From the IMG/VR virus record IMGVR_UViG_3300042294_003019, positions 1 through 20,014 of that record: a stretch of 20,014 nucleotides of DNA. The stretch is one strand, 5' to 3'. This DNA comes from a virus. The position numbers and the translations under genes are program-made. Below the pieces are notes generated by a model. It saw only the letters and a program-made list of their open reading frames with translations, searched no databases and had not been told where the DNA came from. The stretch's first letter is position 1, and each line of letters starts with the position of its first letter. Below, piece after piece: positions 9,018-19,605 of the stretch.

Positions 9018-9344
9018 CTACTCGACGAAAGGGGAATTGCGGATGAGCAAGAGGTCGTCCTCGGCATCGCGGATCGCCACCCAGCGGCAGTCGTTGCGCC
9101 GGTGGTAGACCGTGGGGATCTGTTTCTCGCCGGCATCGCGGCGGGCTTGATCCAGCCAGTCGTAAAGATTGCCCTTCTCGCAGCGCTTCACTTCGATGTG
9201 GAAGCGATTAAGACTCTCGCAGACGACATCGGGGCTTTCGTTGCCGCCGCTGAATTGCTGCCCACGGCGGGCAGTGAATCCTCGGGCGGTGAGGAACTTG
9301 GCAAATTCCAGTTCCCCTCGTTTTCCTTTTTGGCGGCTATTCAT
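9018..9344 (-). CDS. Hjc-like PD-(D/E)XK endonuclease (putative Holliday junction resolvase), 108 aa
   Basis: The protein begins SRQKGKRGELEFAKFL (E11 as first acidic residue), then SPDV (D39), then HIEVKRCEKG (E51, K53) and Q66 in DWLDQARRDAG. This order and spacing is that of archaeal Hjc and related phage resolvase/VRR-NUC-like nucleases, and the length of about 110 aa fits. It would cut branched DNA made during recombination or before packaging. The 5' end overlaps the DnaB stop by 8 bases. A general nicking or structure-specific nuclease cannot be excluded. Confidence 0.7.
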   Translation of the reverse strand: MNSRQKGKRGELEFAKFLTARGFTARRGQQFSGGNESPDVVCESLNRFHIEVKRCEKGNLYDWLDQARRDAGEKQIPTVYHRRNDCRWVAIRDAEDDLLLIRNSPFVE

Positions 9345-10734
9345 TGAGGAGGGCGTTGATCGTGTGAAGATTGGGCTGCGCGCCGTAAGGCTGCGGAGCC
9401 TCGTCGGTCATACGGCTGATGTTGGCGTGGTCGAAGCGGGTGCAGGCGGGCGACCAGACCATGGGGAAGCTGCGGGTCTGCCCCTCGCGGTGCTTGGCCA
9501 CGATCATCTCGGCATCCTGGTTGTCCGTGGAGTCGGCGCCGCTGCCGGCCTCGTAGTAGCCTTCGCGGTGCAAGAGGATGATGATGTCGGCGTCCTGCTC
9601 CAAAGATCCCGAGTCCTTCAAGTCGCTCATGCGCGGCTTCGTGTCCGTGCGGTCGTCGGCCTTGCGTCCAACTTGGGCGGCGGCAATGACGGGCACGCCT
9701 AACTCCAGAGCCATAGCCTTGAGGCCGCGACTGACGGCACTGACCCGCTCGTAGCTGGTATTGTAGCCCTTGGCCTCCAGAAGCTGAGCGTAATCCACGA
9801 AGATAGCCTTGATGCCGTGACGGCGGATGTCCCGGCGAGCACGGCCGCGCACGTCCATGATGTTCGCACCACGGGCTTCGTCGATATAGAGAGGCTGATC
9901 CCCGAGCTTGAAGAAATGGTCGCCAAGGCTTTTGGCCTCGTTCTGGCTGATGGCGCCAAGACGGACCCGCGCGCTGTTGGCTCTGGCCCGCGCCATGACA
10001 ATGCGGTTGGCGATGCTCTTGGCCGGCATTTCCAGCGAGAACAACAGGACCGGAGTTCCTGCTGCCGCCATGCGGTCGCACATGTTGATGAGAAGCGCAC
10101 TCTTGCCCATGCCAGGGCGACCGCCAACGACGATGAGTTGCCCTTCGCGCAAGCCCCCGGTCAGCACGTCGAGTTCGCGGAAGCCGGTGGATAGTCCGCG
10201 AGGCTTCCCTTTGTTGGCCATGGCCTCCTCGATCTCGGCGGCGGCATCGCTCACCACGGCACTGACGTGCATGCTGCCTTGGCTCGGCCCGTCCAAGTTG
10301 ATGGACAGGATGCTCTCGCCGGCCTCGGCCACCACTTCGCTCACGTTCTGGGCAATGTCGCGTCCAGCAGCAGCCATGCGCACACCTGCCTCCACCATGC
10401 GCCTGCGGGCGACATGTTCGCGGAGAATGTTCACATAGTAGGAAAGGTCTCGCGGACCCGCCATGCCGTATATCTCGGTGAGGGCGCAAGCACCGCCAAC
10501 GCCTTCCAGCTTGCCGGATGACGACAGGTGCTGGGTGACGGAAATAAGGTCGGGCTGTCCGCCATCGGCGCGGATGGCCTTGATCGCCGACAGCACCGTG
10601 GCGTTGGCCGGAGTGAAGAAATGCTCGGCCGTCAATTCGTTCCACTCGTCGATCAGCTCGCCGTAGCACATGAGTCCGCCAAGGACGCATTGCTCGGCCT
10701 GCGTGTCGTGGGGCATGGCGTGTTGCTTTTTCAT
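9337..10734 (-). CDS. dnaB: Replicative DNA helicase, DnaB family, 465 aa
   Basis: This is a full-length hexameric 5'-3' helicase. The start at 10734 begins MKKQHAMPHDTQAEQCVLGG, the usual DnaB N-terminus; a longer frame upstream covers the small membrane gene and is rejected. The N-terminal collar domain spans about residues 8-120, with a linker to about 175. In the RecA-like domain, Walker A is GGRPGMGKS (204-212), Walker B IFVDYAQLL (311-319), motif H4 runs from SDLKDSGSLEQDADI (about 370-384), and the arginine-finger region is AKHREGQT (413-420). A separate primase or helicase loader was not recognised nearby, so the phage may use host DnaG, or the initiator may load the helicase. It overlaps the Hjc-like gene. 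A good promoter lies upstream. Confidence 0.95.
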   Translation of the reverse strand: MKKQHAMPHDTQAEQCVLGGLMCYGELIDEWNELTAEHFFTPANATVLSAIKAIRADGGQPDLISVTQHLSSSGKLEGVGGACALTEIYGMAGPRDLSYYVNILREHVARRRMVEAGVRMAAAGRDIAQNVSEVVAEAGESILSINLDGPSQGSMHVSAVVSDAAAEIEEAMANKGKPRGLSTGFRELDVLTGGLREGQLIVVGGRPGMGKSALLINMCDRMAAAGTPVLLFSLEMPAKSIANRIVMARARANSARVRLGAISQNEAKSLGDHFFKLGDQPLYIDEARGANIMDVRGRARRDIRRHGIKAIFVDYAQLLEAKGYNTSYERVSAVSRGLKAMALELGVPVIAAAQVGRKADDRTDTKPRMSDLKDSGSLEQDADIIILLHREGYYEAGSGADSTDNQDAEMIVAKHREGQTRSFPMVWSPACTRFDHANISRMTDEAPQPYGAQPNLHTINALLNE

Positions 10735-10736
10735 GT

Positions 10737-10841
10737 TCACGGAAAACGAGGATCGTTGTCGTCGTTGCCGCCGTAGATAATCGCCGCGAAAACAAGCGCG
10801 CCGATGAGCAGGAGAAACAAGGAGAGTTCGGTGGGATTCAT
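10737..10841 (-). CDS. Tiny single-TM protein, 34 aa, before dnaB
   Basis: ATG at 10841-10839, stop at 10739-10737, two bases before the dnaB start. The sequence MNPTELSLFLLLIGALVFAA then IIYGG is a single hydrophobic helix (about residues 6-24) followed by an acidic tail (NDDNDPRFP). It is the first gene after a predicted promoter, and its tight spacing to dnaB suggests translational coupling. The function is unknown; anchoring of the replication complex to the membrane is a possibility only. Confidence 0.6.
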   Translation of the reverse strand: MNPTELSLFLLLIGALVFAAIIYGGNDDNDPRFP

Positions 10842-13161: not shown

Positions 13162-13559
13162 GCGGCGACTAATTCCTCCAAGAGTTGCCAGTTGCTCGGC
13201 TGACGATGGCGCCTCGGGCTATACCGGATGCGCTTGCGTTCACAGATTTCTTCAAAGCGCCAAAGCACGAACTCCTCGATGTCGGGCAGCCACGCCGCCA
13301 AGATGTCAAAGTCGCCGGCCGCATAAGCCGTCTTGGCGCGCTTACCTCTGCTGGCCATTACCCCGTAGCCGCCACGCTCATGGTCGATGCTCGCCGTCTT
13401 GACCTGCACACTGATCGGGCGACCGGGGGGCTTAAAGATGCAAACGTCTGCCGTCTGGGCGTGGCCGATAGGCATGTAGACCTCCCAGCCGCGAAAGCCG
13501 ACCTGCGCACAGAAAAGCATCTCGGCGTAGGCGCCCTTCTGGCAGCTCGTCATGGTCAT
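13158..13559 (-). CDS. PD-(D/E)XK endonuclease-like protein, 133 aa
   Basis: CQKGAYAEMLFCAQ (E13) followed by a G-x-x-V-x-x-P strand (GWEVYMPIGH), then TADVCIF (D38) and PISVQVKTA (Q52, K54) is the layout of the small PDDEXK nucleases that resemble archaeal resolvases and some homing endonucleases. A later DFDILAAWLPDIEEFVLWRF is typical of the family's last strands. The ATGA overlap at 13559 fixes the start. It is one of four nuclease-fold candidates in the left arm and lies directly after the initiator gene. Structure-specific cleavage at replication or recombination intermediates is plausible; the substrate is unknown. Confidence 0.65.
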   Translation of the reverse strand: MTMTSCQKGAYAEMLFCAQVGFRGWEVYMPIGHAQTADVCIFKPPGRPISVQVKTASIDHERGGYGVMASRGKRAKTAYAAGDFDILAAWLPDIEEFVLWRFEEICERKRIRYSPRRHRQPSNWQLLEELVAA

Positions 13560-14302
13560 ACCGCCAGCTCCTGCATGAGTTCGGAGAAGTCATCCCGAAC
13601 GATCTTCACGATCTTCGGGGCAGGGGGCGCCATGCGCTGCTGCTTGGCATCCTTGTCCAGCCAGACCTTGAGGCGCTGGCGGGTGGCCGTCTCGCCCTTG
13701 TCGGCGCACCACCTGAGCAAGTGCTCAAACTTGGCGCGGACGTTGACCCCGGCGTATTGGGGGAGGGTGGCGAGATGGTCTAGCCAGTCCTCGTCGGACA
13801 TGCCCTTTCCGAGAACGCTTTCTCGCGGCGCGGCACTTTTGGTTTGCCCATGGGAAAAAGAAGGTGGGTTAGGGGATTGTGTTGAGAATGGTATTGCATT
13901 TCTTTTAGAAGAAGGAGAAGTATATATTGTATTATTGTGGGGGGACAATTTGTCCGGTTTTTCGGACAATTTGTCCAAACTGGCGCCAAAATCGGACAAT
14001 TTGTCCACTTCCCTAAATTTGATACGGTAGTGTCGGGATAGCCTCCGGCCGGCCACCGTCTTGGGTTCTTGTGTAATTTCCAGCCACTTGTTCTCCACGC
14101 AGTTGTCGATACACCGGCTGACGTTTCGGGGCGTCATCCCTGTCTTGGCCTCCAAGATGCCCCGAGACACCCATCCCTCGCCCTTGCCGTCACAGAAAAT
14201 GGCAATGGCCAACAGAAGCAACTTGTCACCGTTCTTGGCGGGGCACTCGTCCCAGATCCACTTAAAGAGATCCACGGTAGAAGTAGGGGGAGCCTCGTTC
14301 AT
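13556..14302 (-). CDS. Phage replication initiator, lambda-O-like layout, 248 aa
   Basis: The N-terminal part (about residues 22-95) reads as a winged helix: LLLLAIAIFCDGKGEGWVSR, a recognition helix near TGMTPRNVSRCIDNCVE, then a wing with RRLSRHYRIKF. A low-complexity linker (100-165) follows and contains DKLS three times (100-103, 110-113, 117-120). These codons are identical and form the 13-bp palindromic iterons in the DNA. The C-terminal domain (about 168-222, EDWLDHLATL then RWCADKGETATRQRLKVWLD) resembles helicase-recruiting parts of phage replication proteins. Binding its own gene as the origin and then bringing in DnaB is the likely role. Start at 14302 is fixed by an ATGA overlap. 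No separate loader is seen. Confidence 0.75.
   Translation of the reverse strand: MNEAPPTSTVDLFKWIWDECPAKNGDKLLLLAIAIFCDGKGEGWVSRGILEAKTGMTPRNVSRCIDNCVENKWLEITQEPKTVAGRRLSRHYRIKFREVDKLSDFGASLDKLSEKPDKLSPHNNTIYTSPSSKRNAIPFSTQSPNPPSFSHGQTKSAAPRESVLGKGMSDEDWLDHLATLPQYAGVNVRAKFEHLLRWCADKGETATRQRLKVWLDKDAKQQRMAPPAPKIVKIVRDDFSELMQELAV
13891..13938. other. AT-rich stretch beside the iterons, probable unwinding element
   Basis: About 48 bases, rich in A and T (including tatatattgtattattg at 13921-13937), stand out in a GC-rich genome. They lie 4 bp from the nearest iteron and inside the linker-coding part of the initiator gene. In the coding direction the order is iterons, then AT-rich DNA, as in the lambda origin. 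This is the likely first melting site. Confidence 0.6.
13943..14006. repeat. ori: Three exact 13-bp iterons GGACAATTTGTCC: candidate replication origin
   Basis: Copies are at 13943-13955, 13964-13976 and 13994-14006, all identical, each with GGACAA/TTGTCC arms around a single central base. Start-to-start spacing is 21 and 30 bp, close to two and three helical turns. They are inside the initiator coding sequence, where they encode DKLS each time with the same codons, so the DNA itself appears conserved. An AT-rich segment adjoins. The arrangement parallels the iterons inside lambda gene O. Confidence 0.75.
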
Positions 14303-14756: not shown

Positions 14757-15491
14757 TCACGTTTTAGAAAAAAATTTCTCGTCGTCGGTTGAATCGGGTA
14801 GTGTTGGTCTTGAAGAAGAACGAACCCCCACCCCCCCTGTGCCGGTAGGGGGTGGGGGCGGTAAAAATCGGGCGTCTTCTGGCTCAAAAACTGGCACACC
14901 ATCCGATCCGACAGAGAGAGAGCAGTCAGAAACAAGCGGTTGTTCACCGCTTGGTTGTGCCGGCAGCACCTGGCGTGTGGCGTTGTGTGCTTTTGTGTGC
15001 GCGGCCTGCGCGACATTACCGGTTGTCGGCGTCACGTCCACCACGACAGCATCGACCACGTCACACCACTCATCTGCTGACGGTGCGACGACATGCTCGA
15101 TGCGTTGTGTGGCGCCACCGGCGAGCAGTTCGGCCTTTTCGGTGGCGATCGCCGACATGACGGTCAAAGCGTGGTCTTTCATTTCCGGCAGCCGGTCGAT
15201 GAGTGTTGCGGTGCCGAGCGCTGCGAGCGTCTTCCAGTTTGCGGCCGTCACGTCACGCGACTGTGCCAGGAGGTCGGGCCGGTTGCGGATCACGCCGGCA
15301 ACGGTGTGGTAAGTTGTGCCGAGCTGCTCGCAGATGCGCTTAATCGGCACGCCGGCGAGGTGAGCGGCTGCGATCGCCTGTGCTTTTTCCTCGGCGATGC
15401 CAAGGCCGGTGTGATCGCCGGACCGGAACACCGGGACGCTTTCCTGCGGTGGTTTGGCCTTTGGTTTGCGTGCGAGTTTTGCGGCCGGCAT
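14757..15491 (-). CDS. HTH DNA-binding protein, 244 aa, possible small terminase-like
   Basis: The start at 15491 shares a base with the upstream stop (TAATG); the open frame reaches further upstream but only by overlapping that gene. After a basic N-tail, a homeodomain-like HTH spans about residues 33-72 (EEKAQAIAAAHLAGVPIKRI, CEQLGTTYHTVAGVIRN). A helical segment at about 84-133 follows, including ATEKAELLAGGATQRIEH, a pattern I associate with phage HTH proteins, some annotated as small terminase. The last 100 residues are low complexity with PPPPPTGTGG. A terminase small subunit is possible, but the large subunit is more than 10 kb away, so a regulator or replication accessory factor is at least as likely. 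Confidence 0.6.
   Translation of the reverse strand: MPAAKLARKPKAKPPQESVPVFRSGDHTGLGIAEEKAQAIAAAHLAGVPIKRICEQLGTTYHTVAGVIRNRPDLLAQSRDVTAANWKTLAALGTATLIDRLPEMKDHALTVMSAIATEKAELLAGGATQRIEHVVAPSADEWCDVVDAVVVDVTPTTGNVAQAAHTKAHNATRQVLPAQPSGEQPLVSDCSLSVGSDGVPVFEPEDARFLPPPPPTGTGGVGVRSSSRPTLPDSTDDEKFFSKT
14825..14858. repeat. Perfect 11-bp inverted repeat CCCCCACCCCC / GGGGGTGGGGG
   Basis: Arms at 14825-14835 and 14848-14858 with a 12-base loop. As RNA or single-stranded DNA this is a very stable hairpin, and the G-rich arms could also join a quadruplex. It lies in the 3' end of the HTH gene, encoding the Pro and Gly runs, about 70-100 bases before the stop. No T-run follows. It may slow transcription or replication. 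Confidence 0.6.
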
Positions 15492-15679
15492 TAGCTTCGT
15501 GGCGTTGGGATCGGTTGCAAGTTTGCGTTGTGAAAACGCGCGATTTCGGCCGACGAAATGAGCGTGCAACGTAGCGTTGGTCGTGACACGCGGATCAGAC
15601 CTTTGCGAACGTATCGGTTCAGCGTGTTGCGGTGGATTCCCATGCGCTTGCACGCTTCAGAAGGTCTGAACAGTTCCAT
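15491..15679 (-). CDS. MerR/AlpA-like small HTH regulator, 62 aa
   Basis: FRPSEACKRMGIHRNTLNRY then VRKGLIRVSRP is a winged helix of the MerR/excisionase type: the helix-turn-helix reads SEACKRMGIHRNTLNRYV and the wing begins at GLIRV. A helical SSAEIARFHNANL follows. The preferred start is ATG 15679 (MELFRPSE), with AGGA 9-10 bases upstream; a TTG at 15709 in the same frame would add ten residues. It is the first gene of the left arm, facing the RHH gene across a 120-bp gap with operator-like repeats, so it probably controls one or both arms. Excisionase function is less likely, as no integrase is in view. Confidence 0.7.
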   Translation of the reverse strand: MELFRPSEACKRMGIHRNTLNRYVRKGLIRVSRPTLRCTLISSAEIARFHNANLQPIPTPRS

Positions 15680-18720: not shown

Positions 18721-18860
18721 CCACCGGAGACCATTACCACGAAAGACCCATGATCAACTGGTGCGCCTACTGGCAGATGATGGCCGCCAAACCCACCGAA
18801 ACGCGGCCCTGGTGGGCAGTGATGGCCGCCAAGGTCAGGCAATGGCTAACGCGCGCATGA
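18717..18860 (+). CDS. Hypothetical Trp-rich peptide, 47 aa
   Basis: The ATG at 18717 overlaps the preceding stop (ATGA). Five Trp and three Met-Ala-Ala/Met-Met clusters occur in a short chain (INWCAYWQMMAAKPTETRPW, then WAVMAAKVRQWLTRA). The unit W-x-x-MAAK appears twice, encoded by the repeated DNA word TGATGGCCGCCAA. It may be amphipathic and interact with membrane or protein. The internal duplication suggests recent repeat expansion. Confidence 0.5.
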   Translation: MTTGDHYHERPMINWCAYWQMMAAKPTETRPWWAVMAAKVRQWLTRA

Positions 18861-18964
18861 GTTCCGCATCTGGTCCCGCTAACACCGGGGCCAGCACGGA
18901 GAGCATAACGCAATCCCGGCCGATGATGGCCGCCAAACACACACAAAGGAGACACACAACATGA
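18857..18964 (+). CDS. Possible tiny protein, 35 aa, running through the leader of the next gene
   Basis: A frame from ATG 18857 to TGA 18964 has ATGA overlaps with both the upstream stop and the downstream start. Its residues (SSASGPANTGASTESITQSR, then MMAAKHTQRRHTT) are low complexity. Its last third simply translates the CA-rich leader and the repeat TGATGGCCGCCAAA. The double overlap supports it; the fact that it encodes a regulatory leader, also used non-coding at other genes, counts against it. Confidence 0.3.
   Translation: MSSASGPANTGASTESITQSRPMMAAKHTQRRHTT
18861..18960 (+). repeat. Intergenic element C: hairpin, CA leader, ribosome site
   Basis: CTGGTCCCG-ctaacac-CGGGGCCAG at 18870-18894 (9 pairs, one G-U) starts 10 bases after the stop at 18860. 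CACGGAGAG follows, then CCCGGCCGATGATGGCCGCC, an A/C-rich leader and AAAGGAG (18945-18951), 9 bases before the ATG at 18961. It shares the TGATGGCCGC segment with element D. Confidence 0.55.
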
Positions 18965-19605
18965 CTGAGAAAAAGATCATCAACATCGGGCAACCGGGAG
19001 ACAAGGCAACCGTGCCGCGCATCTCCCGCAGGCTCAACCAGCCGGTGATGGCCGGCGAGGTCAACAAAATCGCTGCGAGGCTGGAGGAAGCACTGCGCGT
19101 GCTCAACGTGCAGGAATGCCCGAGCTGCGCGAAATTGCAGCACCACTGCGAGAACCTCGCCGGGATCTGCACGGACTGCTGGATCGACAATCCAGACTTG
19201 GACGAGAAAATAGATTTCGACCGGATACCGGATCACGAAATCGCACGCCACTGGTGGACGCTGGAGAAAGCGTTGTTCGGCTACAAGGCAACCGGCCTTG
19301 AGCGGGAAGAGTATCGCATGCCATTCGGGCCTAAGTCTTGGCTGTTGGCCGCCAGCATCGAGGCAACTATTGGCGAGCATCGACTGTCCCGTGTTCTGGC
19401 GCGGGACTGGAATGGTCCGCGCATGGGATGGTGGTCGTGGAATGCCATGCGATGGGTGCCCATGTTGGGGCTGGTTCCCCACATCGGAGACCATCCCAAA
19501 GTTGGAGACTACCCGGCATGGCGCAAGTTCTGGAACCACACTGGTGCCGGATGGGATCGTTGCTTTGTGGAAATCCACCAGAACAAACTGAAAAAGGCCG
19601 CCTGA
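18961..19605 (+). CDS. Hypothetical protein with Cys-rich zinc-finger-like segment, 214 aa
   Basis: The ATG has AAAGGAG 9 bases upstream. After a basic N-terminus and a helix (GEVNKIAARLEEALRVLNV), a cluster C53-x2-C56, C63, C70-x2-C73 (ECPSCAKLQHHCENLAGICT then DCW) resembles a zinc ribbon. The C-terminal half is rich in Trp (HWWTLEKALFGYK, PKSWLLAAS, MGWWSWNAMRWVPM, WRKFWNH). No known domain is recognised. A zinc-binding protein that contacts nucleic acid or host protein is a fair guess only. A minus-strand open frame of 292 codons overlaps this gene and is treated as a shadow. Confidence 0.6.
   Translation: MTEKKIINIGQPGDKATVPRISRRLNQPVMAGEVNKIAARLEEALRVLNVQECPSCAKLQHHCENLAGICTDCWIDNPDLDEKIDFDRIPDHEIARHWWTLEKALFGYKATGLEREEYRMPFGPKSWLLAASIEATIGEHRLSRVLARDWNGPRMGWWSWNAMRWVPMLGLVPHIGDHPKVGDYPAWRKFWNHTGAGWDRCFVEIHQNKLKKAA

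Follow-up and report, generated by a model that had tools for sequence, protein, structure and literature searches.

Judging from sequence comparisons, which reveal its anatomy, a constraint on the DNA itself and cassette exchange, the minus-strand gene located at positions 13556 to 14302 of the window (the whole stretch of 20,014 nucleotides that was analysed) very probably codes for a phage replication initiator and harbors its own origin. The N-terminal domain of this protein would bind iterons located within the gene, an adjacent AT-rich stretch would melt and the C-terminal part would recruit the helicase; the matched cassette recombines between phages. An initiator gene that is its own origin had been proposed in an earlier note on this DNA; the proposal is supported by O-like profiles, by the anatomy of the region and by parallels with phages lambda and P22, from which we infer origin activity. 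The gene belongs to a known kind, for which the specificity hybrids of lambda-type phages are an old precedent, and it gives a candidate location for the origin in a group of uncultured phages. The features concerned are the following.

13556–14302, minus strand: gene of an O-like replication initiator of 248 aa (PHROG profiles and AlphaFold2 domain layout)
14006–14281, minus strand: predicted N-terminal winged-helix DNA-binding domain, residues about 8–99 (AlphaFold2, Foldseek)
13994–14006, minus strand: iteron 1, the first in the direction of the gene, GGACAAATTGTCC (exact motif copy)
13964–13976, minus strand: iteron 2, GGACAAATTGTCC (exact motif copy)
13943–13955, minus strand: iteron 3, GGACAAATTGTCC, adjoining the AT-rich element (exact motif copy)
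13891–13940, no strand assigned: putative DNA unwinding element, 72–75% AT (AT maximum of the window; lambda O is similar in position and AT content)
13805–13996, minus strand: disordered linker, residues 103–166 (AlphaFold2 pLDDT below 50)
13559–13897, minus strand: conserved C-terminal part, proposed helicase contact (83–91% identity in ten relatives; tracks the DnaB gene)
9337–10803, minus strand: phage DnaB-like replicative helicase, start codon provisional (Pfam DnaB_C 1e-78, PHROG 19 8e-100)

The motif GGACAATTTGTCC is found in three exact copies on the plus strand (13943–13955, 13964–13976 and 13994–14006), which are spaced by 21 and 30 bp and span 64 bp. Its arms, GGACAA/TTGTCC, form a perfect palindrome whose symmetry is broken by the central base. 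The 20-kb window contains no further exact copy, and a scan of its whole length retrieved this array as the sole exact repeat of at least 13 bp that is present three times within 200 bp; among 100 Markov sequences, each 20 kb long, none produced a three-copy array. Immediately past the iterons, in the direction of the gene, the stretch 13891–13940 reaches 72–75% AT and constitutes the AT-richest 40–60 bp of the window, which averages 41% AT. All these elements lie within the minus-strand ORF 13556–14302, the dyad sites being repeated inside the gene, between the N and C domains. Motif and AT scans confirm in this way the earlier description of three exact palindromes, 21 and 30 bp apart, beside an AT-rich stretch and in a single frame.

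The 248-aa protein matches PHROG 391, 678, 8540, 428, 270 and 1032, all of which are replication initiators (E-values from 5e-8 to 4e-5). As PHROG 391 is an unspecific profile, also matched in 10 of the 14 control genomes, the profile evidence taken alone is weak. Similarity searches with the protein found no match among annotated phages and no relative in the bacterial genomes searched, and a sequence search of the PDB returned no significant relative. In the AlphaFold2 model, a winged helix (order H-H-E-H-H-E-E) is predicted at the N-terminus with a pLDDT of about 79–89 over most of its length; the top Foldseek matches of this domain are mostly MarR-type winged helices, none of them below an E-value of 0.001. 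The linker encodes iterons 2 and 3 together with the AT element, iteron 1 lying just before it. The C-terminal part appears small and helical in the same model, the overall confidence of which is low (mean 59). Some relatives also match profiles of DnaD-like loaders or primosomal proteins, and the gene might encode a DnaD/DnaT-like helicase loader or primosomal protein, the true origin lying elsewhere and depending on a different initiator. This is most unlikely, since the best matches of the window protein are initiators and since the window holds no other exact three-copy repeat within 200 bp, although an origin could lie beyond this fragment of the genome.

The assignment as an initiator that carries its own origin also draws on the comparison with lambda and P22. 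In lambda O, a flexible linker connects a DNA-binding domain at the N-terminus with a P-binding domain at the C-terminus, and each iteron is bound by a dimer of the protein (PMC6022878). Gene O served as a positive control: the four iterons annotated there occupy frames 0, 2, 2 and 1, and the 75% AT maximum of the gene begins just after the last of them. As in lambda gene O, which contains ori-lambda, the origin proposed here would be intragenic, in the linker that joins the DNA-binding part of the initiator to its partner-binding part, and both phages display several dyad iterons and then a 75% AT maximum starting about 6–8 bp past the last one. In contrast, the iterons of the window are 13 bp long instead of 18 bp, their three copies share one frame whereas the four of lambda are distributed over three, no P-like loader was identified, and the window encodes its own DnaB-like helicase. 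Lambda O matches PHROG 391, 678 and 345, the match to PHROG 391 covering different halves of lambda O and of the window protein. Since neither BLASTP nor hhalign detects significant similarity between the two proteins, the window gene is, on these sequence criteria, filed with a broader O-like kind and not as a lambda O orthologue. The lambda-like layout put forward earlier thus holds for the intragenic repeats and the AT element, which follow each other in the same order as in lambda, but does not extend to direct sequence similarity with lambda O.

In P22, gene 18 has an origin annotated within it and precedes a DnaB-like gene; the product of gene 18 gives only a weak winged-helix match with the window protein. 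The window resembles P22 genes 18/12 in combining an O-like initiator carrying an intragenic origin, putative in the window, with a phage DnaB-like helicase; unlike in P22, the helicase gene is several genes away from the initiator, and its product is 30% identical to that of P22. The O genes of the Stx phages P27 and 933W likewise harbor intragenic iterons, which, unlike those of the window, are of the lambda type and present in six copies (PMC7466680). No paper on the 13-bp iteron was recognised in a literature search.

Each copy of the motif reads GAC AAA TTG TCC in the direction of the gene and encodes DKLS. The use of the same codons in all three copies, already pointed out in the earlier note, is verified: given the codon usage of this phage, the probability that three DKLS have all their codons alike is 5e-4, and when the protein was recoded 20,000 times with synonymous codons, three identical 13-mers never appeared. 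The deduction of a selection on the DNA that had been drawn from these codons is upheld by comparative tests; the argument alone is insufficient, because a recent duplication would also produce identical codons. The copies are indeed identical, but to regard them as a recent and functionless tandem duplication is barely credible, as their flanks and spacings differ, as L002 and L003 keep all three copies although their N-domains show about 24% synonymous difference to that of the window, and as four different arrays are found at the same spot in relatives.

Within the iteron array, synonymous differences affect 0 of 19 codons between the window and L003, 1 of 22 between L005 and L006, 0 of 30 between L007 and L008 and 0 of 30 between L009 and L011, compared with 21–27% in the N- and C-terminal parts of the same four pairs (Fisher p for array versus rest: 0.010, 0.027, 0.0002 and 0.0015, respectively). 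L017, whose N-domain is homologous to that of the window (about 61% identity) and whose C-terminus is different, has its second copy in another frame, where it encodes GQFVQ, and the three copies of L019 occupy all three frames. The motif of the window also lies in different frames in L015, L044, L045, L062 and L097, as do the copies of the type B and type C sites described below. In a hand tally of 28 initiators, lambda included, of which the other members were picked by motif search or homology and thus form a sample chosen for repeats, although the frame of the copies played no part in the choice, 19 have mixed-frame copies and the frame change between adjacent copies is almost random (20:17:13). 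The synonymous sites of homologues, proposed earlier as a check, therefore bear out the claim: iteron codons are invariant, and elsewhere among the homologues the DNA motif is retained in another frame. The DKLS motifs could instead be protein-level repeats of the linker, kept for the protein, as all copies of the window are in one frame and all encode DKLS. This can be practically dismissed, given that the DNA is preserved in other frames among relatives and in further initiators, where it encodes such peptides as GQFVQ or RTICP, that the arrays show almost no synonymous change and that none of the 20,000 recodings reproduces the three copies. By all these comparisons, selection acts on the iteron DNA, independently of the peptide. 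In phage P27, silent mutations of the iterons abolish plasmid replication (PMC7466680).

The ten relatives that share this C-terminus (83–91% protein identity) carry N-domains of four types, A to D, each with its own palindrome. Type A, that of the window, is found in L002 and L003, type B (GGTGTCAnnnTGACACC) in L004, type C (GTGCTCAATYTGAGCAC) in L005 and L006, and type D, with GTGTTC-n5-GAACAC-like sites, in L007, L008, L009, L011 and L012 (the contig L010 begins at this point and lacks the N-part). A scan with the C-terminal alignment found no carriers beyond this known set. In all four types, the N-domain matches the iterons. At the DNA level, the N-domains A and B resemble none of the other types, save one short match between B and C, and those of types C and D share about 71% identity. 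The sites of L005 and L006 differ from those of the five type D members by a symmetric change from GTGCTC to GTGTTC, and this difference on homologous N-domains is a natural specificity switch.

L003 and L012 are 90–100% identical per 50 bp upstream to the ATG, only 30–48% identical over roughly the first 350 bp from the ATG, and again 90–100% identical from about 400 bp; identity on either side of the swapped block is about 97%. Conversely, L002 and L003 have identical N cassettes, and their C-termini are just 89% identical in DNA. As read from these alignments, the DNA-reading domain, the iterons and the AT element are exchanged as one cassette, with one edge at the ATG and the other close to the AT element. 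From lambda-phi80 and lambda-82 hybrids, Furth and Yates (1978, cited in PMC6022878) reportedly placed the origin specificity in the N-part of O. As in these O hybrids, the DNA-binding N-part and the origin specificity of the window group are exchanged jointly on a C-part that contacts, or here would contact, the next replication protein; unlike in these hybrids, the exchange is natural, involves four types on one C-terminus and is sharply bounded, on one side by the ATG and on the other close to the AT element. The novelty lies in this natural cassette exchange with sharp borders and in the four site classes borne by one C-terminus. It amounts to a natural experiment, in that the DNA-binding domain varies in concert with its site on an otherwise constant initiator.

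Besides the initiator, the replication genes of the window encode a RusA-like resolvase, an exonuclease and the DnaB-like helicase (30% identity to P22 gp12). The latter is found in all 11 contigs sharing this C-terminus, with 79–92% identity. Where type-A-like N-domains are joined to other C-termini, its identity is only 46–49%, and it is absent or at most 30% identical in the contigs of more distant initiators. A contact between the C-terminal part and the phage DnaB-like helicase is proposed on this basis, which is one of co-variation only; shared ancestry of the whole module would yield the same pattern.

Taken together, initiation could proceed as follows. The N-terminal winged helix would bind the three 13-bp palindromes, probably as one dimer per site, and the bound iterons would form an O-some-like complex. 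This complex would strain the adjacent AT-rich stretch and lead to its melting. The C-terminal part would then recruit the DnaB-like helicase encoded by the phage itself, as has been proposed for P22 gp18/gp12, rather than act as in lambda, where O and P use the host DnaB. Because the binding domain, its sites and the putative melting region are contiguous, phages exchange them by recombination as a single matched specificity cassette, the C-part remaining constant.

The 13-mer is not restricted to such genes. In viral contigs, 14 of the 19 stretches with GGACAAnTTGTCC pairs and 13 of the 15 with type B site pairs correspond to the linker of O-like initiators, these sets including some near-duplicates and being classified by eye from translations, with PHROG scans for some only. 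Since most of the 56 motif stretches of bacterial genomes lie outside initiators, the 13-mer is also used by other DNA-binding proteins and the motif alone does not mean an origin. In L016, L021, L041, L042, L047 and many of L052–L107, GGACAAnTTGTCC pairs are located outside any long matching ORF or initiator, in operator-like positions. Bacterial ParB-like genes (L071, L076, L087, L060 and L070) contain repeated in-frame GGACAnnnTGTCC, giving VDNLS or GQVVP repeats, which may serve another protein family as intragenic binding sites. The repeats of the window could similarly be operators through which the protein, as a repressor, would autoregulate its gene or operon, no origin being involved; the intergenic, operator-like location of the same 13-mer pair elsewhere and the frequent role of MarR-type winged helices as repressors favor such a function. 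It is nevertheless improbable, as the sites are located about 300–360 bp inside the gene, beside the AT-richest stretch, where lambda and P22 have their origins, and as relatives carry four different palindromes at the same place.

An intragenic origin thus remains the preferred reading, and it has a wider implication, towards which we are nearly evenly disposed, leaning slightly against: a specificity cassette with precise bounds (ATG to about 400 bp), freely exchanged on a fixed part that recruits the helicase, may create distinct origin types that avoid cross-recognition by related phages or satellites, and O-like initiators may form a natural library of winged-helix/DNA-site pairs. If so, a recognition code could be read from these initiators, each of which carries its own binding sites and yields paired protein and site data from sequence alone. 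In L013, L015, L018, L043–L048, L062, L075, L086 and L097, GGACA-type sites are accompanied by [KR][TSN] where the recognition helix begins. A simple code of this kind, drawn by eye, was rejected, type B initiators carrying both S and R there; [KR][TSN] is only a lead.

The GC-skew switch predicted earlier near 13,950 was absent from the skew analysis of the window, such a switch being in any case not a strong expectation at a phage origin. The AT skew flips sign at about 16500, where genes turn from the minus to the plus strand. Three diverged copies of a 30-bp repeat with GATGGCC, two of them sharing GATGGCCGCCAA, are found at 18772–19069. Finally, a C-run/G-run inverted repeat at 14826–14862, within the gene 14757–15653, folds as a hairpin (z -1.9).
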